52,068 bases of DNA from Thermoanaerobaculia bacterium (lineage in GTDB: Bacteria; Acidobacteriota; Thermoanaerobaculia; Multivoradales; JAIOJS01), in contig JAUIDB010000028.1 of assembly GCA_030429235.1 (NCBI GenBank), positions 1-52,068 of the forward strand. Direction: 5' to 3'. Below, in pieces: positions 10,369 to 40,648 of this stretch (the first letter of the stretch is position 1; each line of letters opens with the position of its first letter). A program made the translations under genes and the position numbers. A model generated the notes under the pieces. It worked only from the letters and a program-made list of their open reading frames with translations. It ran no database searches and was not told the origin of the DNA.

Positions 10369-13300
10369 ATGAAGAACTTCAGCCTCGGCATGAAGGTAGC
10401 GACCATCACCGCTATCCTCCTCGCCCTGATCGCGCCGGTTACCTTCGCACAGGAGACCAGTGGATCGGTCGAAGGAACGGTGAACGGTCCGGATGGCAAC
10501 GCCCTACCCGGCGTCACCGTCACTCTGACCGGTGACGGTTTCCCCACCGGACAGCCCGCCCAGACCAACGAGCGTGGTCGCTTCCGCTACCCGGCGGTTC
10601 CCCCGGGCAACTACACCCTGCAGGCGAGCCTCGATGGCTTCGCCGACGCCCAGGTCTCCGCCTTCCGCGTGAACCTCGGTTCCGAGCTCACCATCAACAT
10701 GGCCATGCAGCTCGAGGCCCTGGAAGAGGCGATCGTCGTCACCGGCGACGCTCCGCTGTTCTCCATTACGGCCAGCGACACCTCGGCGACCATCGCCGAC
10801 GAGTGGATCGAAAAGATGCCGACCGCCCGGGACTTCACCTCCGTGGTGGATCAGGCCGCCGGTGCCAATAGCGAAGACACCCACCTCGGTGGTATCTCGA
10901 TCGACGGCTCCTCCGGTTCCGAGAACCGCTTCATCGTCGACGGCATGGACACCACCAACATCCAGGAAGGCGTCTCCCAGAAGCGTGTGATCACGGACTT
11001 TATCGAAGAGGTTCAGGTCAAGCAGGGCGGCTACATGGCCGAGTTCGGCGGTTCCACCGGCGGCGTCATCAACGCTGTGACCAAGCAGGGCGGTTCGGAC
11101 TTCTCCGGCGACCTGCACGTTTACGCCGAGGACAACAGCTGGAACGGTGACGTTCGTCCGGTCTTGCAGCACAACCCGACCAACGGTAACCCGGAACTCA
11201 AGGTCTTCGCCGATGATGACCGCGAGCGACTCGAGCCCGGATTCACCATTGGTGGCCCGCTACAGCGCGACCATCTCTGGTTCTTCGCTGGCTACTCGCC
11301 GGCCGAGGTTGATACCTCCCGGACGGTGACCTTCCTCAGCGACGGAGCCACCCGGACCTACACGGCGAGTTCCGAGAACGAGTACGCAACCGCCAACCTG
11401 ACCGGTTCGTACGGAAAAGTGTACTTCCGACTCGGTGGCAACCTCGATGATCAGACTATCGACAACGCCACCTCTGCCGGAGGTTTTAACCTGCCCAGCC
11501 GCAATGGAACGAGTTCACAGGATCCGGCCGACTATGACACCGACTCGGATCGTCCCGGTCTCTCCTACTCGGCAAGCCTCGACTACCTGGCCACCGCCAA
11601 CGTCTCGGCGAGTCTCCGGGGGGGGCACTTCGAGTACGACACCATGGACAGTGGTTTCCCCACCGGAACCTGGGCTGGACCGTCGACTTCCTCGGCAGGT
11701 ACGCCGTGCCAGGTGTTCCCGGCTGACTGTGTGACGGACACTCCGCTGGGTACCATGCCCAACCATCCGGACAACCGAGGGAACGTGTACGACTACTTCG
11801 AGCGCGAGACTCTGGGACTCGACACCACGATCTTCGTAGAAGACCTGGCTGGTGACCACGAGTTCAAGCTCGGCGTGCAAGAGAACAACATCGAGAACCA
11901 TGTTCTCAGCGGCTACTCGAACACCCGTATTCTCTTCTACATCGATCGCTCGTTCACCAACCTCTTCGGTGAGTCGGTCCGAGGCACCTTCGGCACCTAC
12001 CGTGTGCTGCAGATCGCGACCCAGACTGTGGATCCGGTCAGCTCGGACAACATCGGCCTCTTCCTCCAGGACTCCTGGCGGGCTACGGATCGGTTGACCT
12101 TCAACATCGGTGTCCGCTCGGAAGAGGAGAACGTTCCGTCGTTCGCCGCCACCCCGGGCATTCCGTCGACCGCGATCGAGTTCGGCTTCTCCGACAAGAT
12201 CGCTCCGCGTCTCGGCTTCGCCTACGACATCAAGGGTGACGGTACCTGGAAGGCCTATGGTTCCTACGGTGTGTTCTACGACATCACCAAGCTGGAGATG
12301 CCTCGTGGTTCCTTTGGTGGAGACAAGTGGGTCGACTACTTCTACGGCATGGAGACTCTCGACCTCGAGAGCGTGATCTCCAGCTGCCGGATCGTGGAGA
12401 ACTCCTCCGCCGTGCTGCCCGAGGGTTGCCCCGGTGAGTTCCTCTTCCTGGTCGACCAACGGCACCCGTCGAACGACCCGAACGACTCGACCATCGATCC
12501 GAACCTCAAGCCGATGGAGTCCAACGAGATCACTTTGGGTGTCGAGCACCTGATCGGTCGTAACATGACCGTGGGTGCCCGTTACGTCCACAAGGAGCTC
12601 GAGCGGACGATCGAAGACGTCGGTGTCAACGTTCCGGGCGTCGGTACGGTCTACTACATCGCCAACCCCGGCGAGGGTATCGCCAAGAGCATCCTGGGAG
12701 CTGGTTTCCCGGACCAGCCGCGCGCCGTGCGTGACTACGATGGTCTGACCCTGACCTTCCGCAAGAACCTGACGAACAACTGGGGTCTGAACATGACCTA
12801 CACCTACAGCAAGCTGGAGGGTAACTACTCCGGTCTGTCGAGCTCTGACGAGCTGGGTCGTACCTCCCCCAACGTCAACCGGTTCTTCGACGGTCTCCAG
12901 AACTCGTTCGACCAGAACGGCAATGCGGTGATCGGCGAGCTCGGTTCCGACCGTCCCCACCAGTTCAAGGCGCAGCTCTTGTACTCGCTGCCTTGGGGCA
13001 CCTTCGTCGGTGTCGACCAGCGGATCTCGTCCGGTACCCCGGTCTCGACCGAGTACGACGTGTCCCCGGGTCTGCCGTTCTTCCCGAACGGTCGTGGCGA
13101 CCTCGGCCGCACCGACACCTTCACCCAGACGGACCTCTATCTGTCGCACGAGTTCACCTTCGGCAACGACTACGGACTCGAGTTCTCGGTGAACGTGTCC
13201 AACCTGTTCGACGAGGAGAACGTGCTCGCCATCTACAACAGCGGTGTCGACCAAGACCTCCCGCTGACCGATGCTGAGTTCTTTGCCGGCTTCAACGCCG

Positions 13301-13407
13301 AGCAGGTGATCCAGCAGAACAACATCCCGCGCGATGACCTCTTTGGAATGCCCAACCGGTTCCAGGGACGTCGTACCGTTCGCCTGGGAGCCAAGTTCAC
13401 CTTCTGA
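10369..13407 (+). CDS. Oar-like TonB-dependent outer-membrane receptor (2)
   Basis: This 1,012-residue paralogue of the gene at 4844 has the same plan. There is a signal peptide (ALIAPVTFAQ), a carboxypeptidase-regulatory domain (VEGTVNGPDGNALPGVTVTL), and a TonB-box-like EEAIVVTGDAP. The plug contains RFIVDGMDTTN and AEFGGSTGGVINAVTKQG, and the barrel ends VRLGAKFTF. Cys pairs in CQVFPADC and in the segment SSCRIVEN...PEGC probably staple loops. The sequences differ most in the predicted barrel loops, so the two may take up different ligands. It has the same promoter and leader type as receptor 1, so shared control is likely. A terminator follows at once; the VWFA gene 90 bp downstream would need its own promoter or read-through. 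GGT and CGT codons are frequent. Confidence 0.93.
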   Translation: MKNFSLGMKVATITAILLALIAPVTFAQETSGSVEGTVNGPDGNALPGVTVTLTGDGFPTGQPAQTNERGRFRYPAVPPGNYTLQASLDGFADAQVSAFRVNLGSELTINMAMQLEALEEAIVVTGDAPLFSITASDTSATIADEWIEKMPTARDFTSVVDQAAGANSEDTHLGGISIDGSSGSENRFIVDGMDTTNIQEGVSQKRVITDFIEEVQVKQGGYMAEFGGSTGGVINAVTKQGGSDFSGDLHVYAEDNSWNGDVRPVLQHNPTNGNPELKVFADDDRERLEPGFTIGGPLQRDHLWFFAGYSPAEVDTSRTVTFLSDGATRTYTASSENEYATANLTGSYGKVYFRLGGNLDDQTIDNATSAGGFNLPSRNGTSSQDPADYDTDSDRPGLSYSASLDYLATANVSASLRGGHFEYDTMDSGFPTGTWAGPSTSSAGTPCQVFPADCVTDTPLGTMPNHPDNRGNVYDYFERETLGLDTTIFVEDLAGDHEFKLGVQENNIENHVLSGYSNTRILFYIDRSFTNLFGESVRGTFGTYRVLQIATQTVDPVSSDNIGLFLQDSWRATDRLTFNIGVRSEEENVPSFAATPGIPSTAIEFGFSDKIAPRLGFAYDIKGDGTWKAYGSYGVFYDITKLEMPRGSFGGDKWVDYFYGMETLDLESVISSCRIVENSSAVLPEGCPGEFLFLVDQRHPSNDPNDSTIDPNLKPMESNEITLGVEHLIGRNMTVGARYVHKELERTIEDVGVNVPGVGTVYYIANPGEGIAKSILGAGFPDQPRAVRDYDGLTLTFRKNLTNNWGLNMTYTYSKLEGNYSGLSSSDELGRTSPNVNRFFDGLQNSFDQNGNAVIGELGSDRPHQFKAQLLYSLPWGTFVGVDQRISSGTPVSTEYDVSPGLPFFPNGRGDLGRTDTFTQTDLYLSHEFTFGNDYGLEFSVNVSNLFDEENVLAIYNSGVDQDLPLTDAEFFAGFNAEQVIQQNNIPRDDLFGMPNRFQGRRTVRLGAKFTF

Positions 13408-22254: not shown

Positions 22255-24765
22255 ATGGCCGCTACTTCTCGCCCCTGGTGGCGTGACGATTTCCGTCTTG
22301 TTACGCTCCTGACACCACTGGTGTTGCTCGCCCTCGGCCTCTACGGCTGGGAGCAAGCCCGATTCTCGCAGCGCCAGATCGGGTTCGTGATCGCCGACTC
22401 GGACGAGGGGCTGACCGTCTCCGCCGTCCGCCCGGCCGGACCCGCCGCGCGAGCCGGTCTCGAGTCCGGCGACGTGATCCGCTCGGTGCAGGGCATGCCG
22501 GTCGAGTCGATGCTCGACTACGACCCGGCGATCAGGTCTCGCCAACCCGGCAGTCTGACGCTCATCGAGGTCGAACGCGACGGGCGTCGGATCGATGTCG
22601 GGGTGCAGCCGGGCATGCCCTTCCCGCTCTTCTCGTTCTCGGCGACCGCCCTCACGGTCCTCGCCTACCTACTGATCGGACCGCTGGCCCTACGGAAGCG
22701 CCCCGGTTACCTGCGATCGCGGATCCTGTTCCTTCTGAGTATCGCGATCGCTCTCGAGATCGCCCTGCCCGGAGTCCACACCGCGATCGACCTCTGGGCC
22801 GGTTTCGGGGTACTGCTGAGCGGAATCCAACTCGCCCTAGAGTTCCACCTCGCCTCGGTGATCCCCGAACGACAGGGTTGGATCCGGCGACACCCCTGGG
22901 TCATCCCGTCCTACTACCTGGTGGGTCTCGGTTTCGGCCTTGCCATCGCGGGCGGCTTCTTGCTCGACCACTACGGATTCGGAGCCCTGCTCCTCTGGGA
23001 TACCAACGCGCTCTATGGCTTCTTCCTGACCGTGGTCTCCCCCTTGTGGGCGGTCGGGGTGTTGTTCCTGCTCGGACGACAGGCTCTCTTTTATCCCGAG
23101 GCTCAGGGCCGACAGCAAGCGGGGATCGTCGCCCTCGGGGTGCTGCCTTGGGCCCTGGTCCTGCTCGCCAGCGAGTTCGGTTGGCTCTCCTCGTGGGTTG
23201 CCTTCCGCTGGGAACAGCTGGTCTGGAATCTCGCGCTCCTCTGCTATCCGCTGGCGGTTCTCCTGCTGCTCTACCAGGAGGCTACGACCCAGGAGCGCAT
23301 TCTCCTCGACCTCACTCGTCGAGTCCACGACGCCACCTCGCTCGTGGAGGTATCTCGCATCGTCAGCGAAGACCTCGCCGCGGCCTTCCACCCCCAGGCC
23401 ACTCACGTGTTCTATCGCCAACGTCAGGAACGCGATCTGAGGCTGGGGCATTCCAGTGGTCCCCGCCTCCCGGAGGAATCGATCCCCCGGGACAGCTCGT
23501 TGCTCCGGTTGGTCGAGGCCGCGGGTAGAGCCGTTGACTACCCGGACGAGTTGGTCGGACTCGACCCGCCGGACGCCGCCTGGCTCGACCAGCTGGGCGC
23601 CAGTCTGGTAGTTCCGCTGCGCGGTCGTGACAAGACCCTCCTCGGCCTTCTGATCCTCGGCCAGAAGAAGTCCGAAGAACCCTACTCACCGCACGACCGC
23701 AATCTCCTGCGGGCGCTGACCCATCAGATCTCCCTGATCTACGAGAACGCGCGCCTCGAGGAACGGGTCGTCGAAAGCCAACAGATCCAGAACGACTACC
23801 TCGTGGACCACGAAGCGGAGTTGCTCAGAGAGTGTCCCGACTGTGGTCGATGCCACCCCGCCTCGACCGACCGATGCCACGAGGACGGCCACGATCTCCC
23901 CCCGCCCCGCCCGATCGAGTTCCACCTGGAGGGCAGATACCGCTTCGAGCGACGTCTCGGGCGAGGAGGGATGGGAGCTATCTATCGAGCCACCGACGAG
24001 CAACTGGAGCGGGCCGTGGCCATCAAGGTGCTCCTGGGGGACTTCGCTACCAGCGACGCCAGGCGCCGTTTCGAGAACGAAGCTCGCCTGACGGCTCGAT
24101 TGCAACATCCGAACGTCGTAACCCTGCACGATTACGGCATGACCCAAACCGGAGCGGCCTATCTGGTCCTCGAGTACCTCGAGGGTGAGACGCTGGCCGA
24201 TCGCATCGCCCGATCGGGCCCGCTCACTCCCGCCGATCTGCTACCGCTGGTTCGGCAGATTCTGGCCGCGGTCCAGACCGCCCATCAGCAGCAGGTAGTG
24301 CATCGCGATCTGAAGCCGTCGAACATCTTCCTCGCGATCGGCGACGGTGTCCCCATGGTCAAGGTCCTCGATTTCGGAGTCGCCAAGGTACTCGACCAGG
24401 TTCGTTCGGACGCCGACCACACGACGCCAGGCTTGCTGGTCGGCACCTTCCAATACATGGCTCCCGAGCAGCTACGGGGCGAGGAGGCTGACGAACGCAG
24501 TGACCTCTTTGCGGTCGGCGTGCTCCTGGTCGAGGCCCTCGTGGGTAAACCCCCGTTCTCCGGCGAAGCGCCACCCCGCCTCTTGAACTCTATCCAGCAG
24601 GGATTCGACTCCGAACTTCTCCCCGCCGGCAGCGGGCGACTCGCCACCGTCCTGCGACGCGCGCTGGACTACGAACCGGAGCGACGCTACGCTTCGCTGC
24701 GCGAACTGCGCCACGACCTCTTGCCGGCACTCGACGAGCTGGCCAGTTCCACCCCACATCCCTGA
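22255..24765 (+). CDS. Membrane Ser/Thr protein kinase: PDZ-7TM-GAF-zinc knuckle-kinase
   Basis: This 836-residue protein has, in order, an N-terminal membrane anchor and a PDZ domain (about 45-100, VSAVRPAGPAARAGLESGDV). Next is a block of about seven membrane segments (about 125-345), a GAF domain (about 355-510), a Cys/His knuckle CPDCGRCHP...CHEDGH (about 527-546), and a Hanks-type kinase (about 560-825). The kinase has GRGGMG, the VAIK lysine (about 588), HRDLKPSN (about 682-689) and DFG (about 705), so it should be active. A PDZ outside and a kinase inside suggest sensing of envelope peptides or proteins. The SpoIIE phosphatase at 34196 has the same PDZ-7TM-GAF plan. Translation is likely leaderless. 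The gap to the peroxiredoxin is 25 bp, so they may be co-transcribed. Confidence 0.9.
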   Translation: MAATSRPWWRDDFRLVTLLTPLVLLALGLYGWEQARFSQRQIGFVIADSDEGLTVSAVRPAGPAARAGLESGDVIRSVQGMPVESMLDYDPAIRSRQPGSLTLIEVERDGRRIDVGVQPGMPFPLFSFSATALTVLAYLLIGPLALRKRPGYLRSRILFLLSIAIALEIALPGVHTAIDLWAGFGVLLSGIQLALEFHLASVIPERQGWIRRHPWVIPSYYLVGLGFGLAIAGGFLLDHYGFGALLLWDTNALYGFFLTVVSPLWAVGVLFLLGRQALFYPEAQGRQQAGIVALGVLPWALVLLASEFGWLSSWVAFRWEQLVWNLALLCYPLAVLLLLYQEATTQERILLDLTRRVHDATSLVEVSRIVSEDLAAAFHPQATHVFYRQRQERDLRLGHSSGPRLPEESIPRDSSLLRLVEAAGRAVDYPDELVGLDPPDAAWLDQLGASLVVPLRGRDKTLLGLLILGQKKSEEPYSPHDRNLLRALTHQISLIYENARLEERVVESQQIQNDYLVDHEAELLRECPDCGRCHPASTDRCHEDGHDLPPPRPIEFHLEGRYRFERRLGRGGMGAIYRATDEQLERAVAIKVLLGDFATSDARRRFENEARLTARLQHPNVVTLHDYGMTQTGAAYLVLEYLEGETLADRIARSGPLTPADLLPLVRQILAAVQTAHQQQVVHRDLKPSNIFLAIGDGVPMVKVLDFGVAKVLDQVRSDADHTTPGLLVGTFQYMAPEQLRGEEADERSDLFAVGVLLVEALVGKPPFSGEAPPRLLNSIQQGFDSELLPAGSGRLATVLRRALDYEPERRYASLRELRHDLLPALDELASSTPHP

Positions 24766-24790
24766 CTCCACTTTCTTGCGAGGAATCACC

Positions 24791-25264
24791 ATGACCGATT
24801 GGATCGAAGCGGGCCAGGAGGCCCCCGACTTCACGCTGCACGACGATCGCGGCACGGACGTGACACTGTCGAGCCTGCGCGGCCGGGCGGTCGTGCTGTA
24901 CTTCTACCCCAAAGACGATACCCCCGGCTGCACGAAACAGGCCTGTGCCTTCCGAGACCGGCGCCAGGACTTCGATCGACTCGACGCCGTTGTGCTCGGA
25001 GTCAGCCCCGATGGCGTCGACAGCCACGGAGCCTTCCGAGACAAGTACGGACTGAACTTCCACCTGCTGGCCGATGCCGACCACCAGGTCGCCGAGGCCT
25101 ACGGCGCCTGGCGAGAGAAGACCCTCTACGGTCGGAAGTCGATCGGGATCCAGCGGTCCACCTTCGTGATCGATCGCGAGGGCGTCGTCCAGAAGGTCTG
25201 GAAGCGGGTTCGGGTCGACGGCCACGACGCCAAGGTCGTCGAGGCCTTGGAAGCGCTTGGCTGA
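24791..25264 (+). CDS. bcp: Thiol peroxiredoxin, BCP/PrxQ type
   Basis: This 157-residue thioredoxin-fold enzyme reduces hydrogen peroxide and organic peroxides using thiols in the cytoplasm. The start is the ATG at 24791 behind GAGGA; an in-frame upstream start at 24776 has no Shine-Dalgarno of its own. The active site is YPKDDTPGCTKQACAFRD, with the peroxidatic Cys near residue 47 and the resolving Cys five residues later, the pattern of atypical two-Cys PrxQ enzymes. Other family landmarks are VVLGVSPDGVDSHGAF and RSTFVIDREG. The stop overlaps the start of the DUF2156 gene by 8 bp, so the two are translationally coupled. Confidence 0.95.
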   Translation: MTDWIEAGQEAPDFTLHDDRGTDVTLSSLRGRAVVLYFYPKDDTPGCTKQACAFRDRRQDFDRLDAVVLGVSPDGVDSHGAFRDKYGLNFHLLADADHQVAEAYGAWREKTLYGRKSIGIQRSTFVIDREGVVQKVWKRVRVDGHDAKVVEALEALG

Positions 25265-26363
25265 TCAGAGCACCCTCTCGGATGCCGGAGACTCCGATCT
25301 CCGACGAGCCCGACAGCTCGTCCTCGAGTTCGGCCACAACGCCACTGCGTATCAGATCCTCAATCCCGGGCTGAAGCTCTGGTTCAACGTCGAGCCGAGT
25401 GGAGTGGTCGGCTTCGTCGAAACCAAACGGCGAAGAGTCGTGGCCGGCGAACCGATCGGTCCGGCCGGCAGTATCCTCGAACTCGCCGATCGGTTCGAAC
25501 GGCGGGCCAGCCGGGACGGAGTGGCGGTCTGCTACTTCGGCGCCGAGGCGCCCCTCGCCGATGCCGAACCGGTCGATCGCCTCCTGCTCGGCGCTCAACC
25601 CTGCTGGCGACCACGGAGTTGGCAGAGGATCCTCGGAAGCAAGGCCTCCCTCCGGGGTCAGCTCGCTCGCGCCCGCAACAAGGGCGTCCTCATCGAGGAA
25701 TGGGATGTCGATCGGGCCACCGGACACCCCGAGCTGAACCGTTGCCTCGAAGAATGGCTGGCCACTCGGGGGCTTCCCCCGATGCACTTCCTGGTCGAAC
25801 CGGAGACCCTGGAGCGGTTGTTCGATCGGCGGGTCCTGGTCGCCCGGCGCCAAGCCACCGTCGTGGCCTTTCTGGTCGCCTCTCCGATCCAGAACCGAAA
25901 CGGCTGGCTCGTCGAGCAGATCGTGCGTGGCCACGCTGCCCCCAACGGTACGGCCGAACTCCTGCTCGATGCCCTGTTCGATCGACTCGACGCCGAGGAG
26001 AGCCGCTACGTGACGCTCGGACTCTCCCCGCTTTCACACCGGTCGGGCCTGCAAGAACCTCCCGACCGCTGGTGGATCAGGCTCCTGTTGGGGTGGGTGC
26101 GCGCCCACGGGCGGCGCTTCTACGACTTCGATGGGCTCGACTTCTTCAAGGACAAGCTGAAGCCCGACCACTGGGAGCCGATCTACGCCGTGTGTCGCGG
26201 GCGCCGCCTCGGCCTGGGCGATCTCTACGCGATCGGATCGGCCTTCAGCGGCGGTACTCCCTGGAGATTCCTCGCGGCAGGAGTCGGCCGGGCGATTCGC
26301 TCCGAAGCGAGAACACTGATCCGTATCGCGCGGCGACCCGGCCGGAGAGTGCTCCTGTGCTAG
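25257..26363 (+). CDS. DUF2156 protein, MprF C-terminal-like aminoacyltransferase fold
   Basis: This 368-residue protein is related to the soluble domain of lysylphosphatidylglycerol synthase (MprF), a tandem GNAT fold that moves an aminoacyl group from tRNA to lipid. No flippase membrane part is present, so it is a stand-alone DUF2156 protein and its substrate is unknown. Landmarks are EFGHNATAYQILNPGLKLWF, RRRVVAGEPIGP, KASLRGQLARARNKGV, VEQIVRGHAAPNGTAELL, YVTLGLSPLS and FYDFDGLDFFKDKLKPDHWE, the last the most typical of the family. The start is a TTG at 25257 inside the end of the peroxiredoxin gene (8-bp overlap), the only reasonable start before conserved sequence. The stop is one base before the next GTG, so the run of genes is an operon. 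Confidence 0.85.
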   Translation: MADQSTLSDAGDSDLRRARQLVLEFGHNATAYQILNPGLKLWFNVEPSGVVGFVETKRRRVVAGEPIGPAGSILELADRFERRASRDGVAVCYFGAEAPLADAEPVDRLLLGAQPCWRPRSWQRILGSKASLRGQLARARNKGVLIEEWDVDRATGHPELNRCLEEWLATRGLPPMHFLVEPETLERLFDRRVLVARRQATVVAFLVASPIQNRNGWLVEQIVRGHAAPNGTAELLLDALFDRLDAEESRYVTLGLSPLSHRSGLQEPPDRWWIRLLLGWVRAHGRRFYDFDGLDFFKDKLKPDHWEPIYAVCRGRRLGLGDLYAIGSAFSGGTPWRFLAAGVGRAIRSEARTLIRIARRPGRRVLLC

Positions 26364-26364
26364 C

Positions 26365-27684
26365 GTGGACCACGGGACGATGACAGTGCCACCAGACCGC
26401 GACCGGGCTCCGATCCTCGCGGCGAGTCTGCGCGACGATCTCGCCTATCGCGACGAACTCACAGGTTTGTACAACCGCCGCGTCCTGGACCATCTGGAGC
26501 GGCACCACTGGCCGGAACTGACGGCGCAGGGTGCTCCGCTCTCCCTGGTCCTGGTGGATCTCGACCTGTTCAAAGAGGTCAACGATACCTACGGCCATCT
26601 GGCCGGCGACCGCATTCTCCGGGCTACGGCCGATGCCCTTCGCGACAGCTTCCGGCGGCGCGACATCGCGGTCCGATACGGTGGTGACGAGTTCCTGGTC
26701 ATCCTGCCGGGTGCCGGAGAGATCGAGGCGCAGACGCTAGCGGAGCGCGCGAGGGAAGCCCTGTCGTCGCAGCACCACACCGCCGACGAGGCCGGCGGTA
26801 CGACGATCGACATCCCCGTTTCCTTCAGTTTGGGACGCGCCACCCACCCGGCGGACGGCGTCGACCTGTCCGAACTCATGGCGACCGCCGATGAGCGACT
26901 ATACGCCGAAAAGGAGAAGCGCCGGCCCCACCGGACGAAATACGGCAGAGCACTCACGATCGGGTTGTTCGGTCTCTTGCTCCTGATCCTGGGTTCGAGT
27001 TGGTGGTCCCGGTCCGAACCGGCTCCGACTCCGGTGGTGGAGGCGACCGAAGACCCGACCGTCAACGACGGGGCAACCGCTCACCTGGAACGGCAGATCG
27101 CCGCCCTCGAGGAGAGCGTCCGGACGCTGCGGGCCGCCCTGACCGCCGAGAGGGAGTCGCCCGAGGCCAGCGCCGACAGAGCGCGCATCGATGCCCTCGA
27201 AGCCACCATCACACGACTTCGTGAGGACCTGCAACGACGCAACGAGGCGGCGAGCCCGCCGCCGGAACCGACTTCCGTGCCGCTTCCGGAGCCGACGCAG
27301 AGTCCCCCAGCCGAAGCGTCGACGCCGCCAGCCGGCTCGTCCGAGACCCCGGACGAGCCGGGACTCGACTTGCCCGCGGTCCCGATCGAGACTCCCACTC
27401 CGCGCGAGATCGTGCTCGAGCCTCCCCGCCTGCGCGACCTCGCCCCTCCCGACTACCCCCGACGCGCCCTCGAGTTGCGGCGTGAGGCCACCCTCCGATT
27501 CGAGGTCGTCGTCGCTCCCGATGGCTCGGTGCTCTCGGCCCGTGCGCTGGACGAACCGGCGGGTTTCGGCTTCGATCAAGCGGCGCACGAAGCGGCGCTC
27601 GCCGCCCGCTACTCTCCAGGGACTCGCGACGGCGTTGCCACCGAGATGACGGCGCGCCTGTCGATTCAGTTTCGGTTGGACTGA
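26365..27684 (+). CDS. Diguanylate cyclase fused to periplasmic TonB C-terminal domain
   Basis: This 439-residue protein has a cytoplasmic GGDEF domain (about 28-180), one membrane helix (about 195-214, ALTIGLFGLLLLILGSSWW), a periplasmic coiled coil (about 235-295), a Pro-rich linker (297-345), and a TonB C-terminal domain (about 355-438, PPDYPRRALELRREATLRFE and VVAPDGSVLSARALDEP). The cyclase has an intact RYGGDEF and an RRRD inhibitory site five residues before it, so it should make c-di-GMP from GTP with product feedback. TonB C-terminal domains contact receptors or peptidoglycan. The fusion implies a link between c-di-GMP and TonB-type transport, which is inference. The start is the GTG one base after the previous stop; ATG 26380 is an alternative. 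The 3' end overlaps the convergent sulfatase-fold gene by 19 bp. Confidence 0.88.
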   Translation: MDHGTMTVPPDRDRAPILAASLRDDLAYRDELTGLYNRRVLDHLERHHWPELTAQGAPLSLVLVDLDLFKEVNDTYGHLAGDRILRATADALRDSFRRRDIAVRYGGDEFLVILPGAGEIEAQTLAERAREALSSQHHTADEAGGTTIDIPVSFSLGRATHPADGVDLSELMATADERLYAEKEKRRPHRTKYGRALTIGLFGLLLLILGSSWWSRSEPAPTPVVEATEDPTVNDGATAHLERQIAALEESVRTLRAALTAERESPEASADRARIDALEATITRLREDLQRRNEAASPPPEPTSVPLPEPTQSPPAEASTPPAGSSETPDEPGLDLPAVPIETPTPREIVLEPPRLRDLAPPDYPRRALELRREATLRFEVVVAPDGSVLSARALDEPAGFGFDQAAHEAALAARYSPGTRDGVATEMTARLSIQFRLD

Positions 27685-29336
27685 CGCTCTCGACCGACGT
27701 AGCCGAGATTGCGTAGAGACTCCTCGAGTTCGGCGTCCGGCTCCCGCTCCACCTGCCGAGGAATCCCTGCCGCCCAGTCTTCGAGTGCTGCCGTCAGTCC
27801 CTCGAGCACCGTAGGGTGTTCGGCACTGACATCCTTGCCCTCGCCGGCCCCGGCCAGGTCGTACAGTTCGCTCCGGTATCCCCCTTCGGGACGCGGGAAC
27901 TGAATCAGTTTGAATCGAGTGGTCCGGGCGACCCGCTCGCGAGCGCTTTCGGCCGGCCAACGGTCGAGGATCGCCACCAGACTCTCCGTGGCGACCGTCG
28001 CTGGAGCCGGTTGAGGATCAACCAGCCCGGGATCGAGGGTGCGATCGAAGAGTTCGAGTTCGCCGTGCTGGCGACAGAGCGTCGTCGTCTCGGAGTTCAC
28101 GCAGACTCGGCTCCCTAGCCGTCCGGTGATCAAGGGTTCCCGGGCCTCGTTGAGCAGGGCCGAAGCGCTCTCGGCGAAGACGATGCGGCTGGCGTCGGGC
28201 GGCAAGGAAGCGCTCGGCGCGAGCCGCAGCCCGAGGTCCTCGCCGTCGACCGCGGCCGAGTCGGTGGTCAAGCCGACCTGGCCGAGGAGGGTCGGCAGGA
28301 CATCGACCAAACTGACGGCGGTCGGGTCGACGCGGCCCGCCGCGACCCGGGGTCCCTTGAACACCAACGGTACCCTGAGACCGGCATCGTGCCCGTTGTC
28401 TCCATGCTCGAAGAAGAGTCCGGCCTCGCCGAAGTTCTCACCGTGGTCGGCCGTGAAAACGATCAACGTGTCTTCGAGGAGGCCGCGGGTCTCGAGCCCG
28501 GCCAGGAGACGTCCGATCTCGTGATCCGTGTACCGCACCTCGGCCTCGTACAGCTTCCAGCAATCCTCCAAGGCAGCGCTGGCCACGCCTCCGATGTCCG
28601 CGAAGATCTCGCCGCCTCGATGCGTTCGCTCGGCGTACGAGGCGTAAAGCTCCCAGCAACCCTGGGCCTCGAGGTCGTCCTGCCAGGGCGCGGGAGGCCG
28701 GTAGACGAAGTGTGGATCGAAGTAGAAGGTCCAAAGGAACCAAGGCTGGTCGGCCACCGATTCGTCGACCAGCCGGAGGGCGGCGTCGGTCGTCGCCGTG
28801 GCCCAGCCCGTCCCTCTGGGGCCGGAGGGACTCTTCTCGTGGTAGAGATCATCGCCCACCCGGGTCAGAAGATCACGGTAGCTGACGAAGCGCTCGAAGC
28901 CACGATCGAGTCCCTGCTTCGGACCGGCTGAATCGTTGACGCTCACCGCCATCGTCGTCCAGCCTGCGGCCTGCAGCCTCTGCGCTAGCGTCTCGACGTG
29001 TGCGACCAGCGGATCGCCTACCTCTCGCGACCCGTGGTTCTGGGGCCACAAGCCCGTCAGAAGTGAACCGAGGGCCGGCGTGGTCCGAGGCATGGGTGCC
29101 ATCGCATGAGAGAAGGAGGTTCCGGCGGCGGCAAGGCCATCGAGCACGGGAGTCTCAGTTCCACCGGCAAACCCCAGGACGTCGTAGCGCAGGGTGTCCA
29201 CCGACAGAATCAGGATGCCGGTAGGTTCGGCCGTCTCCTCCGAACCCGGCCCGTTGCACCCGAAGCCGACGAGAATCAGCAGTGAGCTGGCGAGAGCGCG
29301 GCGAGTCCAGAGCCACGCGGTTCGCGACCGGTTCAC
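27666..29336 (-). CDS. Sulfatase-fold lipoprotein (alkaline phosphatase superfamily)
   Basis: This 556-residue protein starts at a GTG one base after the ABC ATPase stop, so translation is coupled. The N-terminus looks like a lipoprotein signal (LLILVGFGC). The fold is the sulfatase/phosphatase type: ILILSVDTLRYD supplies the first metal Asp and TADHGENFGE (about 298) the second Asp-His pair. The nucleophile region reads MPRTTPALGSLLTG (about 83-96). The Cys or Ser of the CxPxR motif that becomes formylglycine is replaced by Thr and the Arg by Leu. It is therefore unlikely to be a classical sulfatase; a phospho- or phosphoethanolamine-transferase or phosphatase activity fits better. Its place behind a Wzt-type ATPase suggests surface glycan modification. 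Confidence 0.85.
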   Translation of the reverse strand: MNRSRTAWLWTRRALASSLLILVGFGCNGPGSEETAEPTGILILSVDTLRYDVLGFAGGTETPVLDGLAAAGTSFSHAMAPMPRTTPALGSLLTGLWPQNHGSREVGDPLVAHVETLAQRLQAAGWTTMAVSVNDSAGPKQGLDRGFERFVSYRDLLTRVGDDLYHEKSPSGPRGTGWATATTDAALRLVDESVADQPWFLWTFYFDPHFVYRPPAPWQDDLEAQGCWELYASYAERTHRGGEIFADIGGVASAALEDCWKLYEAEVRYTDHEIGRLLAGLETRGLLEDTLIVFTADHGENFGEAGLFFEHGDNGHDAGLRVPLVFKGPRVAAGRVDPTAVSLVDVLPTLLGQVGLTTDSAAVDGEDLGLRLAPSASLPPDASRIVFAESASALLNEAREPLITGRLGSRVCVNSETTTLCRQHGELELFDRTLDPGLVDPQPAPATVATESLVAILDRWPAESARERVARTTRFKLIQFPRPEGGYRSELYDLAGAGEGKDVSAEHPTVLEGLTAALEDWAAGIPRQVEREPDAELEESLRNLGYVGRERQSNRN

Positions 29337-29337
29337 C

Positions 29338-30564
29338 TCACCCGACCTCGACGTCGGCCCGCACCCAGCGGTGCGAGATCCGGGTGAGTCCGATCTCGTA
29401 CTCGTCGCCGTGCACCACGAAGGCCCGCCGGACGATGCGTAGGTCGTAAGGGTGCAACCCTCGTTCGTCCATCAGGTAGACGAACACCGTGAACTCTCCC
29501 TTCACGATCGGCAGTTCGTGCAACGAGAGTCGAAGCCGGTAGTCGGCCCGGCCCTCGAACGGATCGCCACCCTCCTTCCAGGTAGAGAACGAGGCCACCT
29601 GTACGCTGTCGATCCGGTCGATTCCGACGGCCACGTGAAAGGGAACTCGAGGATCTGCCGTCTGCCAGGTGATTTCGAGCTCGAGCGGATCTCCATAGCG
29701 AAACACCCTTGGATCCTCGGTCGACTCGCCCGGCTTTCCACCGCTGAGCACGACGTCGGTGATCCGCCCGACTCCCGGGCGCTCCACCTCGCCCGGCCCT
29801 TCGTCCTCCGGATCGACTTCGATCGCTTCTCCGCCCTTCTCCAGCAGGAAGTTCTCGTACTCACGGACGACGTCGGCCGCGGGACCGAGGCGCTCGATCC
29901 GTCCCTTGCGCATCCACAGCGCCCGCTGACAGAAGGAACTCACGTAGTACATCGCGTGAGAGCAGAAGAGCAGAGTACCCCCGTGGTTGGTGAACTCGGT
30001 CATGCGGTCCATGCACTTCTTCTGGAAGTAGCCGTCGCCCACCGACAGAGCCTCGTCGATCACCAGAACCTCCGGCTCGACCTGCGTAGCGATGGCAAAA
30101 CCCAGCCGCATCGACATTCCGGTCGAATAGACCTTCACCGGCTGGTCGATGAAGTCGCCGAGTTCACTGAACTCGATGATCTCCGGAATCCGGGCCTCGA
30201 GCTCGGCCTCGTCGAGGCCGAGCATCGCCGCATTCAGCCGAATGTTCTGCCGTCCCGTGAAGTCGGGGTGGAACCCAGAGCCGAGTTCGAGGATCGAAGC
30301 GACCTTGCCACGTACCTCGATCTCCCCCGAGGTCTGCGTAGTGACGCCCGATAAGATCTTGAGAAGAGTGGATTTGCCGGCCCCGTTCTCTCCGACGATA
30401 CCTAGTCCCTCTCCTGCCGCAAGCTCGAAGCTGATGTCCTGAAGAGCGGGAAACTCGTGGTGCCGGCGCTTGCCTCCAAACAGTTCGAGGAAGCGGTCGG
30501 CCGGACGCGAGTAGACCTTGTATATCTTGCTGACCGCATTGGCTTTGACAACCGACTCCGACAT
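29338..30564 (-). CDS. ABC transporter ATPase of polysaccharide export, Wzt type
   Basis: This 408-residue protein has an ATP-binding domain (about 5-245) with Walker A GENGAGKST and Walker B VLVIDEALSVGD. Its signature YSTGMSMRLGFA replaces LSGGQ, as is usual for Wzt/TagH-type exporters. A C-terminal beta-sandwich (about 270-408, FRYGDPLELEITW to the end) is of the Wzt-C type, which binds the non-reducing end of the glycan. It would pair with a Wzm permease to export O-antigen-like polysaccharide across the inner membrane, but no permease gene lies in this window. It is followed at 1 bp by the sulfatase-fold gene, and divergent from the glycosyltransferase-like genes. Confidence 0.92.
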   Translation of the reverse strand: MSESVVKANAVSKIYKVYSRPADRFLELFGGKRRHHEFPALQDISFELAAGEGLGIVGENGAGKSTLLKILSGVTTQTSGEIEVRGKVASILELGSGFHPDFTGRQNIRLNAAMLGLDEAELEARIPEIIEFSELGDFIDQPVKVYSTGMSMRLGFAIATQVEPEVLVIDEALSVGDGYFQKKCMDRMTEFTNHGGTLLFCSHAMYYVSSFCQRALWMRKGRIERLGPAADVVREYENFLLEKGGEAIEVDPEDEGPGEVERPGVGRITDVVLSGGKPGESTEDPRVFRYGDPLELEITWQTADPRVPFHVAVGIDRIDSVQVASFSTWKEGGDPFEGRADYRLRLSLHELPIVKGEFTVFVYLMDERGLHPYDLRIVRRAFVVHGDEYEIGLTRISHRWVRADVEVG

Positions 30565-34195: not shown

Positions 34196-36706
34196 ATGCG
34201 GGTCGAACGAGCCTCCGTACGCCTTCTGATCGCCGTAGGCCTCCTGGCCTTCGGGTTGGCGCTCGCTTCGATCATCGACATGTTCCGCCCCCAGCCCTAC
34301 GATGGGGTGGTCCTCGAAGCCGACGCTCCCGCACAGTTGATCGTCGCCGAGGTGGTCGAGGGATCGGGAGCAGACGAAGCCGGGATCCGCGCCGGCGATC
34401 GGATCGTCGGCATCGGTCGTGACCTCCTGCAGTCGACCCAACACGCTTCCCGCCTCCTGCAGGGGTATCGCATCGGCGAGATCGTGCCCTACCTCGTGGA
34501 ATCGGATGGTCGTCGTTGGGAGACCCTGGTGCGTCTCGGTACGCGCCGGATCGGGAGCGTGGCCTACCTAGGAGCCTGCCTGCTCGGCTTCGCCTTCTTT
34601 GGAGTCGGCGCCTTCGTCCTCCGCCAGCGGCCCCACCTGCGGGTAGCCCAGGTTTTTTACCTGCTTTCCAGTGCCTTTCTGGTGTTCTTGGTATGCCGCC
34701 TGCGCCCCGCCTCCTACTCGGGAGTCGACGAATTCGTGCTGCGCATGGGTACGGTAGCTCTCCTGCTCCTGCCCGGCTGCTTCCTGCACTTCTTCCTCAT
34801 CTTCCCGCGTCCCGTGTGGCGGGACCGAGGTGGTGTCCTCGGAGCACTCGACCGCAGTCGACGCCTGCGCGTGGTGTTGCTCACCGCTCTCTACCTCCTG
34901 CCCGTCGCGATCTTCCTGACCGTCATCTACGTCTACTCCTTGCAAGAACTACCGCTGTTTCTGATCAGCGGCGCTCCTCGGGCCAACTGGTGGACCCTCG
35001 GCGCCTACATGCTGCTGGGACTCACCGTACTGGCGACCAATGCGAGCCAGATCCGCCGCCTGAACGAACGCCGGGGCGCCGTGTTGGTCTTCCTCGGTAC
35101 CCTCTTTGGCCTGGTTCCCTTCCTAGTGTTCACCGTGGCGTTTCCGTCCTTCCGCCACACCGAGCAGTTCTTGTACTACGGTGCCGCACCCCTGATCCTG
35201 GTGCCGCTGACCTTCGCGTACTCGATCGTGCGCTTCCAGCTGCTCGATATCCGTGTCATCCTGCGCAAAAGCCTGTTCTACACCGGCACCACCGCCGCGA
35301 TCACGGCGATCTACGCCGCCGGCATGACGGCGTTCAACTGGGTCCTCCAGGGAGCAGGATTCACTCAACACCCCCTCTTCCCCCTGGTCTTCGCGCTGGC
35401 GGTCGTGCTGGGACTCGAACCCCTGCGGCGGCGCCTGCAGGGACCGGTCGACCGCTTCTTTCTCGGAGATCTGTCGCGGCTGCAGGACGCAGTCGTGGAG
35501 ATGGGAGAGGCTCTGGGGGCACACGCCGACCCTGGGCAGCTCGTCCGCGACCTCGTGGCTCAGCTACCGGAACGCCTGGGCATCCACTTCGCCGCCCTCT
35601 ACCAGGTCCAGGACGGAGTCCTGGAACGAGTCGCTGGCCCCCACCACCTTCCTACCTTTCTGGGGCCTCCCGAGGTCTTGGACCCCCTCACGGAGCAACT
35701 AGGAGTCCTCGCCCCGTTGGAGGGACGGCAGGAGCTCGGAGGCGAGATCGACGACCTGCTCGCCGAACTGGAGGACGACGGCGTTTCGCTGATCGGCGAA
35801 CTCGCCTCACCTCGCCGGCGCGTGGGAGTCATGCTGCTCTCGGAAAAGGACGCGCACCTGGGCTGGGATCCTTCGGAGCTGGAGATTCTGCGCGGGCTGC
35901 TGGCCCAGGCCGCGATCGCGCTCGAGACCAGCCAGCTCCTGGCCGAACGTACGCAGCAAGCGGAGTTCGAGCGCGAACTCGAGATCGCGGCGGGGATCCA
36001 GGCCGGGTTGCTGCCGACTCGGGTCGAGTTCGCTCACGGCTGGAAGGTCTCGGCGGTCTGTCAACCCGCCAAACACGTCGGCGGGGACTTCTTTTCGGAG
36101 ATCCCGGCGCCGAACAACGGATCCAAGGCCCTGGTCTACGGCGATGTCGCCGGCAAGTCCATTCCCGCCGCTCTGATGATGATGGCAGCCCAGGAGGTCC
36201 TGCACTCCCTGTCGATGACCCACCGAGAACCTCGCCAGCTGATCGAGTTGGCGAATCAGCGCCTCTATCGGCTCCAACGACGCAGTTTCGTCGCCCTCAC
36301 CTACCTCACCGCGCGCCCCGACGGACGCGGCATCGAGTACCTGGTCGCGGGCCAACCGAGTCTCCTCTGTCGTCGTCGCAACGGCGAGGTAGAGGAACTG
36401 CCGCTGGCTGAACACCGCCTGCCCCTCGGTGCCCTCGAAGTCGGTGGATACCACACCCTCGAGGTCGACCTCGACGACGGCGACCTCGTTCTGGGCTGCT
36501 CCGATGGCGTTCTCGAGGCCCAATCGGCCGGGGGCTCCTTCTTCGGCCACGAACGGTTGGTCGCGGCCCTGGCCTCCGGACCCTCCGAACCAGCCGCCGC
36601 GGTGCAACACATCCTGCACCAGATCTCACGATTCACCGCCGGTTCCGAACCCTACGACGACCTCACACTGGTGGCGCTGCAACGCCACCCGGAGATGCGC
36701 TCATGA
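34196..36706 (+). CDS. Membrane PP2C-type phosphatase: PDZ-7TM-GAF-SpoIIE (RsbU-like)
   Basis: This 836-residue protein has a membrane anchor and a PDZ domain (about 40-100, EVVEGSGADEAGIRAGDRIV). About seven to eight membrane helices (about 120-390), a GAF domain (about 430-580), and a coiled linker (ERELEIAAGIQAGLLP) follow. The SpoIIE/RsbU phosphatase domain (about 600-830) has AKHVGGDFFSEI (about 628) and VYGDVAGKSIPAALMMM (about 648). The usual GGDxxD motif reads GGDFFS, so one acidic residue is changed. Such proteins dephosphorylate anti-sigma antagonists; none is encoded nearby. Upstream, the five-codon frame ATG GAG CGT ATC TAG (34177-34191) ends 4 nt before the start. The stop overlaps the TPR gene start (ATGA). 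Confidence 0.9.
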   Translation: MRVERASVRLLIAVGLLAFGLALASIIDMFRPQPYDGVVLEADAPAQLIVAEVVEGSGADEAGIRAGDRIVGIGRDLLQSTQHASRLLQGYRIGEIVPYLVESDGRRWETLVRLGTRRIGSVAYLGACLLGFAFFGVGAFVLRQRPHLRVAQVFYLLSSAFLVFLVCRLRPASYSGVDEFVLRMGTVALLLLPGCFLHFFLIFPRPVWRDRGGVLGALDRSRRLRVVLLTALYLLPVAIFLTVIYVYSLQELPLFLISGAPRANWWTLGAYMLLGLTVLATNASQIRRLNERRGAVLVFLGTLFGLVPFLVFTVAFPSFRHTEQFLYYGAAPLILVPLTFAYSIVRFQLLDIRVILRKSLFYTGTTAAITAIYAAGMTAFNWVLQGAGFTQHPLFPLVFALAVVLGLEPLRRRLQGPVDRFFLGDLSRLQDAVVEMGEALGAHADPGQLVRDLVAQLPERLGIHFAALYQVQDGVLERVAGPHHLPTFLGPPEVLDPLTEQLGVLAPLEGRQELGGEIDDLLAELEDDGVSLIGELASPRRRVGVMLLSEKDAHLGWDPSELEILRGLLAQAAIALETSQLLAERTQQAEFERELEIAAGIQAGLLPTRVEFAHGWKVSAVCQPAKHVGGDFFSEIPAPNNGSKALVYGDVAGKSIPAALMMMAAQEVLHSLSMTHREPRQLIELANQRLYRLQRRSFVALTYLTARPDGRGIEYLVAGQPSLLCRRRNGEVEELPLAEHRLPLGALEVGGYHTLEVDLDDGDLVLGCSDGVLEAQSAGGSFFGHERLVAALASGPSEPAAAVQHILHQISRFTAGSEPYDDLTLVALQRHPEMRS

Positions 36707-38178: not shown

Positions 38179-40578
38179 CTAGCTGAGGGCCGGCAGTTCC
38201 CCCGACTCGTGGAGACGGCGCTGCCGCGCCCAGATCAGGAGCTCCGTCGGCGGCAACGGCCGAGCGTAGTGGAAACCCTGGGCGAGGTGGCAATGCTCCT
38301 GCTCGAGAAAAGCAACCTGCTGAGGGGTTTCCACTCCCTCCGCGACCACCTCGAGACCGAGGCTCAACCCGAGACTGATGATGGTCCGTACCAGGACCGC
38401 TGCGTCCTGGTCCTCGGGGAGGTCCGCGACGAAGGAACGATCGATCTTGAGCGTATCGACCGGAAAGCGCCTGAGGTACCCGAGGGACGAGTAGCCGGTC
38501 CCGAAGTCGTCCACGGCGATGGCCAACCCGCGGGACCGTAGCGCCCCCAACGTCTCGACCGCCTGGTCGGGATTGACCATGATCGCGCTCTCCGTGATCT
38601 CGATCTGGACCGAGCGGGGATCGATACCGGAGCGGTCGATCGCCTGTGCCACGGTCCGCACCATACCCGAATGCCCGAAGTAGTGCGGTGAAACGTTGAC
38701 CGAGAGTCGAAGGTCCCCGAGACCAGAGGCCTGCCAGTCTCTCACCTGACCACAAGCCTCTCGCAGGGCCCACTCGCTGAGGCGGTCGATCAAGCCAGCT
38801 TCCTCTACCACCCGTAGAAACTCGGCCGGAGGCAGGATGCCCCGTTGGGGATGATCCCAACGCACCAAGGCCTCGACGCCGACCAGCCGCCCGAGGGTGA
38901 GGTCGATCAGGGGCTGGTAGTGCAGAACCATCTGCCTGCGCTCGATCGCGTTGAAGAGTTCCTCCTCGAGCTGTCGACGCTCGCGGACCACCTCGTTCAT
39001 GCGGGGCAGGAAGTAGCGGTAGCGGTTGCGGCCCTCCGCTTTGGCTGCGTACATCGCGAGGTCCGCGTTCTTGAGGAGGGCCTCCGGATCGCTGCCGTCC
39101 TCGGGGTACAGGGTCACCCCGACGCTCGCGGTGACGAATAGAGTCCGGCCGCCCAGTTGCACGGGTTTGCCGAGAGAGTCGATGACCCGCTGCGCCAACA
39201 GAGCCGCGCTCTTGGCGCCCTCGAGGTCGGTTTGGATCACCCCGAACTCGTCTCCTCCCAGGCGAGCAGCCGTGTCGCTACCGCGGGTCGCATCGCGCAG
39301 ACGTACCGCCATTTCGACCAGGAGCTTGTCGCCAAAGTCGTGCCCCAACGTGTCGTTGACGTCCTTGAACCGATCGAGGTCGATGAACAAAACTGCGACA
39401 CCGGTGTCGTTCCGACTCGCACCGGCCAGGGCTTGTTCGAGACGGTCGTGGAACAGGGTCCGGTTGGGCAGTCCCGTCAGCACATCGTGGAGCGCGAGAT
39501 GTCGCATCCGCCCCTCGAACTCGCGCCGTTCGGTGACATCGGTGTAGGTGGAAACGAAGCCGCCGCCGGGCATGGGATTCGAATGCACTTCGAGTACCGT
39601 GCCGTCCGGCCGCTGGCGCTCGTAGCGGTGGGTGCCACCCGAACGAGCCGATCGTGCGATCGAAAGGCGATCGAAGAGCAGCGACTCGATGTCAGTCTCG
39701 CCGTACTCACCTCGCTCGGCGTTGAATCGCAGAATCTCCTCGAGGGTCATCCCGACCCGAACCGCATCGGGCTCGACCCCCAGCAACTCGAAATAGCGCT
39801 GGTTGCAAGTCACCAGGACGAGTTCACCGTCGAACACACAGATCCCCTGACCCATGTTCTGCAGTGTGGCCTCGAGCAGGGCGGACTTGCGAGCCGTTTC
39901 GGCTTCGGCTTCCGTGTGCTGTACCAGCATCCGGTTGTACTCCCGCACGAGGAGACCGAGTTCGTCTGGGCTCTCCCAGTCCACCTGACGGCGCGGTCCC
40001 GTCGGTGCGGCCTGACGCATCGACTCGAGGAGCCGATTCAGAGGCTCGCTCAGCGAGGTCCTGACCGCCACCAGAACCCCGACCAGCAGGGCACCGAGCA
40101 GGGCGGTGGAGAGCAAGAGATCGACCAGGATCCGCTGCCGCAACTGGCGCCGAATTCCCGCTGAGGTGAAGTAGAGCTCGATCTGGCCGACCGCGTGTGA
40201 CACACCACGGCTCTGGTACACCACCGGACGCACGGTGAGCAGATTGGATCCTGAACCGTCTCCGATCGGCGATCCGGCTCGAGCCAATACCTCTCCGTCC
40301 TGGCCCCGGGCCACGGCGGCAACTACGTCCTCGACCTTGAGGAGTCCGTTCATCGCCGACTCGATGTTGCCGATATCCAGATTCCAGAAGGGAACTGCCA
40401 ACACCTCGGCGCTGACTTCGGCCTCGCGCCCCATACGAGACTCCAACTGGCGCTCGAGGGAGCGATAGGTCAACGTCTCGACCAGCGTGAAGATCAGGAT
40501 GCAGAGCAGACTCACCACGGCGACCGAAATAGCGAGAAAGCGATTCCGGAGGGAGCGAAATCTGTTCAGTATCTTCAT
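38179..40578 (-). CDS. Membrane sensor with PAS, GGDEF and EAL domains
   Basis: I place the start at the ATG at 40578 (MKILNRFRSLRNRF), just before the first membrane helix; an in-frame TTG at 40617 would only add a polar tail. The order is helix 1 (about 12-35), periplasmic sensor domain (36-165, PFWNLDIGNIESAMNGLL), helix 2, HAMP-like linker (187-240), PAS (245-365), GGDEF (370-535) and EAL (545-795). The cyclase motif is LGGDEF (about 440) with RGSD as inhibitory site. The phosphodiesterase residues are all present: GVEALVRW, VNVSP, ITES, DDFGTGYSS, LKIDRSF and AEGVET. Both activities are therefore plausible. It is divergent from a periplasmic binding-protein gene, which might deliver a signal to its sensor domain. 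Confidence 0.93.
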   Translation of the reverse strand: MKILNRFRSLRNRFLAISVAVVSLLCILIFTLVETLTYRSLERQLESRMGREAEVSAEVLAVPFWNLDIGNIESAMNGLLKVEDVVAAVARGQDGEVLARAGSPIGDGSGSNLLTVRPVVYQSRGVSHAVGQIELYFTSAGIRRQLRQRILVDLLLSTALLGALLVGVLVAVRTSLSEPLNRLLESMRQAAPTGPRRQVDWESPDELGLLVREYNRMLVQHTEAEAETARKSALLEATLQNMGQGICVFDGELVLVTCNQRYFELLGVEPDAVRVGMTLEEILRFNAERGEYGETDIESLLFDRLSIARSARSGGTHRYERQRPDGTVLEVHSNPMPGGGFVSTYTDVTERREFEGRMRHLALHDVLTGLPNRTLFHDRLEQALAGASRNDTGVAVLFIDLDRFKDVNDTLGHDFGDKLLVEMAVRLRDATRGSDTAARLGGDEFGVIQTDLEGAKSAALLAQRVIDSLGKPVQLGGRTLFVTASVGVTLYPEDGSDPEALLKNADLAMYAAKAEGRNRYRYFLPRMNEVVRERRQLEEELFNAIERRQMVLHYQPLIDLTLGRLVGVEALVRWDHPQRGILPPAEFLRVVEEAGLIDRLSEWALREACGQVRDWQASGLGDLRLSVNVSPHYFGHSGMVRTVAQAIDRSGIDPRSVQIEITESAIMVNPDQAVETLGALRSRGLAIAVDDFGTGYSSLGYLRRFPVDTLKIDRSFVADLPEDQDAAVLVRTIISLGLSLGLEVVAEGVETPQQVAFLEQEHCHLAQGFHYARPLPPTELLIWARQRRLHESGELPALS

Positions 40579-40648
40579 GAGCAGAAGTTCGATGGAGCGG
40601 GAAGGACCGCCGAGCAAGCCGGGCCGTCACTGAGGGGGCAGTTTGACT

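Follow-up and report, generated by a model that had tools for sequence, protein, structure and literature searches.

The window, as the whole stretch of DNA analysed here is called, has a length of 52,068 nucleotides. One of its genes encodes a protein in which a GGDEF domain, a single membrane helix, a stalk, a Pro-rich spacer and a TonB C-terminal (TonB_C) domain follow each other. The features of this protein and the neighbors relevant to it are the following:

26365..27684, + strand: GGDEF-TM-stalk-TonB_C protein of 439 aa; one intact ORF, supported by Pfam and by homologs
26443..26925, + strand: GGDEF diguanylate cyclase domain, residues 27-187; Pfam PF00990, 1.3e-40; fold and sequence matches to cyclases in the PDB
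26653..26664, + strand: RxxD inhibitory-site motif, RRRD, five residues ahead of GGDEF; RxxD in 12/12 members
26680..26694, + strand: intact GGDEF signature, invariant across the aligned members
26950..27006, + strand: single transmembrane helix without histidine; hydropathy and AlphaFold2 helix
27067..27252, + strand: periplasmic helical stalk of two helices, a probable coiled coil; AlphaFold2 helices 230-256 and 261-291 (A4 numbering) and heptad test
27256..27414, + strand: Pro-rich disordered spacer; 33% Pro, AlphaFold2 pLDDT mostly <60
27445..27678, + strand: TonB_C domain, residues 361-438; Pfam PF03544, 3.1e-13; AlphaFold2, Foldseek and PDB profile match
25257..26363, + strand: upstream gene, LPG_synthase_C; context, not a shown partner of the cyclase
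4844-7804 and 10369-13407: TonB-dependent receptors
38179-40617, - strand: PAS-GGDEF-EAL protein

The cyclase gene starts with GTG at 26365 or, alternatively, with ATG at 26380. The GTG lies one base past the stop of the LPG_synthase_C gene, with which the cyclase gene is possibly co-transcribed, and the 3' end shares 19 bases with a convergent sulfatase gene. A recent foreign insertion was considered and rejected, because the GC3 of the cyclase gene (0.795) equals that of its neighbors (0.78-0.79). The two TonB receptors and the GGDEF-EAL protein that a preliminary description had placed in the window are all present, each at least 10 kb from the cyclase gene and without an operon link to it. 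The window also encodes two proteins, possibly a pair of similar build, with a PDZ and then a GAF domain: the one at 22255-24765 ends in a Ser/Thr kinase, the one at 34196-36706 in a SpoIIE-type phosphatase.

Domains of the Predicted Protein

The GGDEF domain scores 139.3 bits against a curated Pfam cut-off of 23.8, and the solved GGDEF domains nearest to it are 3ign, DosC, WspR and PleD. The motifs DLD, ND, GH..GD, GGDEF and RRRD are all found. The residues for metal, guanine and phosphate (DxD, ND, GD and the K/R after ADxxLY) are present in the ORF, in VDLDLFKEVNDTYGHLAGD and ADERLYAEKEKRR, and GD, K and R are conserved in the aligned homologs. With its motifs intact, the domain would be an active cyclase. 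The intact GGDEF with an inhibitory RxxD site, as first described, is borne out by Pfam and by the motifs, and is kept in 12 of 12 genomes. In Hypr (cGAMP) enzymes, Ser/Thr replaces the Asp of the GHxxGD motif, and the Geobacter structure 6d9m reads GS where this family has GD. An identity as a Hypr cyclase was ruled out, as GD is invariant in all aligned members.

The sole hydrophobic helix, ALTIGLFGLLLLILGSSWW, is preceded by a basic stretch, EKEKRRPHRTKYGR. By the positive-inside rule, the protein would be oriented N-in/C-out, which fits the topology initially proposed, with the cyclase in the cytoplasm and the TonB domain in the periplasm. The single membrane helix and the Pro-rich spacer of that proposal are both present in the ORF, and the domain order is confirmed. 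The region between helix and spacer is a helical stalk, probably a coiled coil: in the heptad test, 13 of 2000 shuffles were as good as the stalk of the window protein. The same test supports a coiled coil in one homolog and not in every homolog, so that the earlier assignment is supported for these two proteins and not for all members.

An AlphaFold2 model of the full-length protein, built on an alignment of 11 rows, has a mean pLDDT of 78.9 and a pTM of 0.44, with confident GGDEF and TonB_C domains. Helices are predicted at residues 185-209 (transmembrane), 230-256 and 261-291, and the spacer is disordered. In Pfam, the TonB_C domain scores 50.4 bits (cut-off 24.6). Modeled alone, this part reaches a pLDDT of 93.4, and Foldseek matches it to E. 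coli TonB (1u07_B, E 2.1e-5, probability 1.00) and to P. aeruginosa TonB in the FoxA complex (6i97_D, TMt 0.80), among others. The sequence profile of the family also matches TonB2 and TonB chains in the PDB. A C-terminal domain that is not TonB-like, an objection foreseen in the preliminary description, is thus contradicted by the predicted fold, which matches solved TonB domains.

Distribution and Conservation of the Fusion

Homologs were searched in the relatives, the order and the class, as well as in a sample of the phylum. The same domain order occurs in 12 genomes of five families, one of them in another class; as this number includes the window genome, eleven others carry it. Six belong to family f9 (G009, G017, G024, G034, G037 and G045), and the remainder are G100 (f10), G419, G472 and G474 (f16) and G321 (f54, the other class). 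The start of the G037 homolog is missing at a contig end, and the G045 homolog is spread over two contigs (L043, L110), which was taken as an assembly break. G030, in which a contig end leaves only a C-terminal piece (L128), was left out of the count. Within the class, 11 of the 149 genomes encode the fusion. A search of named genomes gave only other GGDEF proteins, not the fusion. The recurrence of a continuous ORF in five families refutes a frameshift joining two genes, and gives a negligible probability to any artefact, be it a frameshift, a misassembly or a chance join.

Pairwise identity is 56% in the GGDEF domain and 50% in TonB_C, against 22% in the transmembrane helix, 29% in the stalk and 22% in the spacer. 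Both ends, conserved while the connecting parts drift, hence appear to be under selection.

No operon partner is shared between families, and synteny was found only among near relatives in f9. In the same genus, contig C338 of G001 (L185) is colinear with positions 24078-30363 of the window but lacks the cyclase gene. Its order is kinase, thiol-peroxidase-like protein, LPG_synthase_C (66% identical to its ortholog in the window), sulfatase and ABC, the site of the gap lying between LPG_synthase_C and sulfatase. The gene is therefore dispensable in the genus and is gained or lost as a whole. Since its GC3 equals that of the neighbors, this difference may be an old gain or else a loss.

Comparison with TonB Proteins and with Tailed Kinases

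Like the TonB energy transducer, the window protein has an N-in single helix, a Pro-rich spacer and, at the C-terminus, a TonB domain with the same fold. Unlike TonB, it adds a cytoplasmic enzyme and a helical stalk, has an altered tryptophan motif, is not part of an exb cluster and lacks the histidine of the SHLS motif. The TonB helix makes contact with ExbB through Ser16 and His20, of which the histidine is essential (PMC12215075). For comparison, 24 short stand-alone TonB_C proteins were collected, three from this genome and 21 from relatives; L169, without a helix in its fetched stretch, was dropped from the histidine count, which leaves 23. The histidine is present in 21 of these (not in L176 and L180) and in none of the 12 cyclases. 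In addition, the cyclase tails have A, S or T where the W-x-[FY]-x-P motif of stand-alone TonBs has its tryptophan. A separate ExbB-ExbD-ExbD-TonB cluster is encoded in the genome at C75:57722-59869 (ExbB at 57722, ExbD at 58236 and 58685, TonB at 59636). None of the contigs with exbB or exbD genes (C75, C44, C6, C37) is the one that carries the cyclase gene.

Searching the class with the TonB_C domain of the cyclase family gave ORFs of 540-1280 aa, nine of which were scanned with Pfam. TonB_C is present in all nine; the kinase domain is strong in five, weak but above the Pfam cut-off in two, just below it in one and only a trace in L151. The kinase-type proteins have a His-free helix, a stalk and a Pro/Glu-rich spacer in common, and the helix contains no histidine in any of the 25 kinase-type tails in which it is visible. 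Their tryptophan, too, is A, S or T in nearly all cases, L155 and L158 having kept it. Two such proteins belong to this genome: L147:557-2488 (G000:C21), with a degenerate kinase ahead of the TM-stalk-TonB_C tail, and L148:360-3536 (G000:C75), with a kinase domain (6e-39) containing HRDVSPQN ahead of it. Apparently, (pseudo)kinases with this tail are common in the class, and in some relatives (L155, L159) a receiver domain is added.

These proteins (L147, L148, L149, L153 and others) have the same kind of tail as the cyclase, with a TonB_C mostly without the tryptophan, and differ in their cytoplasmic part, a kinase. The cyclase can be placed with them in a set of the form signalling enzyme-TM-stalk-TonB_C, having an enzyme, a His-free transmembrane helix, a stalk, a Pro/Glu-rich spacer and a C-terminal TonB_C. 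The fusion is not a one-off and resembles a wider set of tailed signalling proteins, mainly kinases. No paper describing a GGDEF-TonB or kinase-TonB_C fusion was found in the open-access literature; the new observation is that the TM-stalk-TonB_C tail without histidine is also carried by Ser/Thr (pseudo)kinases.

In a tree of 63 TonB_C domains (99 columns), the stand-alone TonBs form one clade (100/99.6), L176 and L180 having been excluded from this group, so that the grouping is partly our choice. The cyclase tails form one group (90/88), and there is moderate support for the cyclase fusion having arisen once. A tree with the cyclase tails and the stand-alone TonBs together was not rejected (p-AU 0.407); a shared origin of the cyclase and kinase tails is suggested, not shown.

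TonB_C domains also occur elsewhere in this genome. Two M56/BlaR1-type peptidases, L027 and L032 (G000:C37, C69), have a C-terminal TonB_C, in one of them twice. Like the window protein, they are probable signalling proteins ending in this domain, but they have several transmembrane helices and a peptidase, and their TonB_C is nearer the canonical type. The LptD-type outer-membrane protein L033:1-2286 (G000:C21:25653-28853; LptD 3.4e-20 at residues 190-420) has a TonB_C at 501-566 (6.1e-14) with more sequence beyond, perhaps as an insertion within the barrel region.

According to the preliminary description, energy coupling could depend on the messenger. As an energy transducer, the protein would be a TonB driven by ExbB-ExbD, its cyclase coupling transport to c-di-GMP. 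The arrangement of transmembrane helix, Pro-rich spacer and TonB_C is indeed that of TonB. However, the lack of the histidine in 12 of 12 members, the altered tryptophan, the complete and separate Exb-TonB cluster, the approximately 190 cytoplasmic residues preceding the membrane and the occurrence of such tails on kinases make this very improbable. As far as the sequence goes, the missing histidine argues against a contact with ExbB; it is no proof of independence from ExbD.

A Putative Periplasmic Sensor of a Cytoplasmic Cyclase

Signalling from periplasm to cytoplasm is the best reading of the cyclase. It is reasonably likely to be an inverted single-pass transmembrane cyclase, in which TonB_C works as a periplasmic sensor that binds or anchors, instead of an arm powered by the proton motive force. 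The GGDEF domain would lie N-terminally in the cytoplasm and the input part, made of stalk, Pro-rich tether and TonB_C, C-terminally in the periplasm. Most likely, TonB_C would bind or be anchored to a partner in the envelope, such as peptidoglycan or a peptide resembling a TonB box. Binding or tension would then change the dimerisation or the register of stalk and helix, altering the pairing of the two GGDEF domains, and the RxxD site would cap the output, which implies product inhibition. As GGDEF domains act as dimers, control through stalk pairing is plausible; we infer both the dimerisation of this cyclase and the direction of its regulation. A tail of this kind is also carried by Ser/Thr kinases and pseudokinases, which suggests an input module that can be reused.

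A specific form of this explanation is a sensor of receptor occupancy, with TonB_C binding the TonB boxes of substrate-loaded outer-membrane receptors and thereby setting the c-di-GMP level. TonB domains recruit these boxes through strand addition (PMC10907165), and TonB domains solved in receptor complexes (6i97, 2gsk, 9dc4) have this fold. The genome contains 27 Plug domains, and stalk and spacer together could extend a long way into the periplasm. This form is nevertheless rather unlikely, as 13 kb separate the cyclase gene from the nearest receptor gene, the neighbors are not common to the homologs and the tryptophan of W-x-[FY]-x-P is replaced. Somewhat more doubtful is a constitutive cyclase which TonB_C merely tethers to peptidoglycan or an envelope site, with local c-di-GMP and no sensing. 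An association of the TonB C-terminal domain with peptidoglycan has been proposed (review PMC9022066), and the tail is reused on several enzymes; yet a stalk running via the membrane helix straight into the catalytic domain exceeds the needs of a tether.

The sensor reading also invites comparison with known receptors. Membrane-bound GGDEF cyclases (DgcN/YfiN/TpbB, DgcJ) likewise combine an intact GGDEF and RxxD with a periplasmic part joined to the cytoplasmic cyclase. The order is inverted in the window protein, with the cyclase N-terminal and the periplasmic part C-terminal; HAMP, CHASE and PAS are absent, and the periplasmic part is a TonB_C. All NCBIfam equivalog models for named cyclases score far below their cut-offs on it. 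PASTA-type receptor kinases, with a cytoplasmic signalling enzyme, one transmembrane helix and a C-terminal extracytoplasmic part that binds the cell wall, have a different enzyme and a different extracytoplasmic domain, so that the resemblance is one of analogy, not homology. In the best reading, the cyclase represents the c-di-GMP version of a receptor type that combines a cytoplasmic signalling enzyme with a periplasmic TonB-like tail.

To our knowledge, the ligands of most membrane cyclases are not known. In this conserved cyclase, the TonB-like domain is the one folded part in the periplasm, which gives a short list of candidates (TonB boxes, peptidoglycan). Signalling from the outer membrane to the cell is known mainly via FecR-type sigma regulators. 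The protein suggests a little-studied way of envelope sensing and not a component of the motor for nutrient uptake. The kinase relatives suggest that many proteins of these bacteria named 'TonB family' are sensors and not energy transducers, and the histidine of the membrane helix provides a simple sequence test separating TonB transducers from TonB_C sensors. More tentatively, TonB_C is possibly a general periplasmic input module, off ExbB-ExbD, through which the condition of outer membrane or peptidoglycan is fed into c-di-GMP synthesis and Ser/Thr phosphorylation. If true, cytoplasmic signalling enzymes would read receptor occupancy or the state of the envelope directly.
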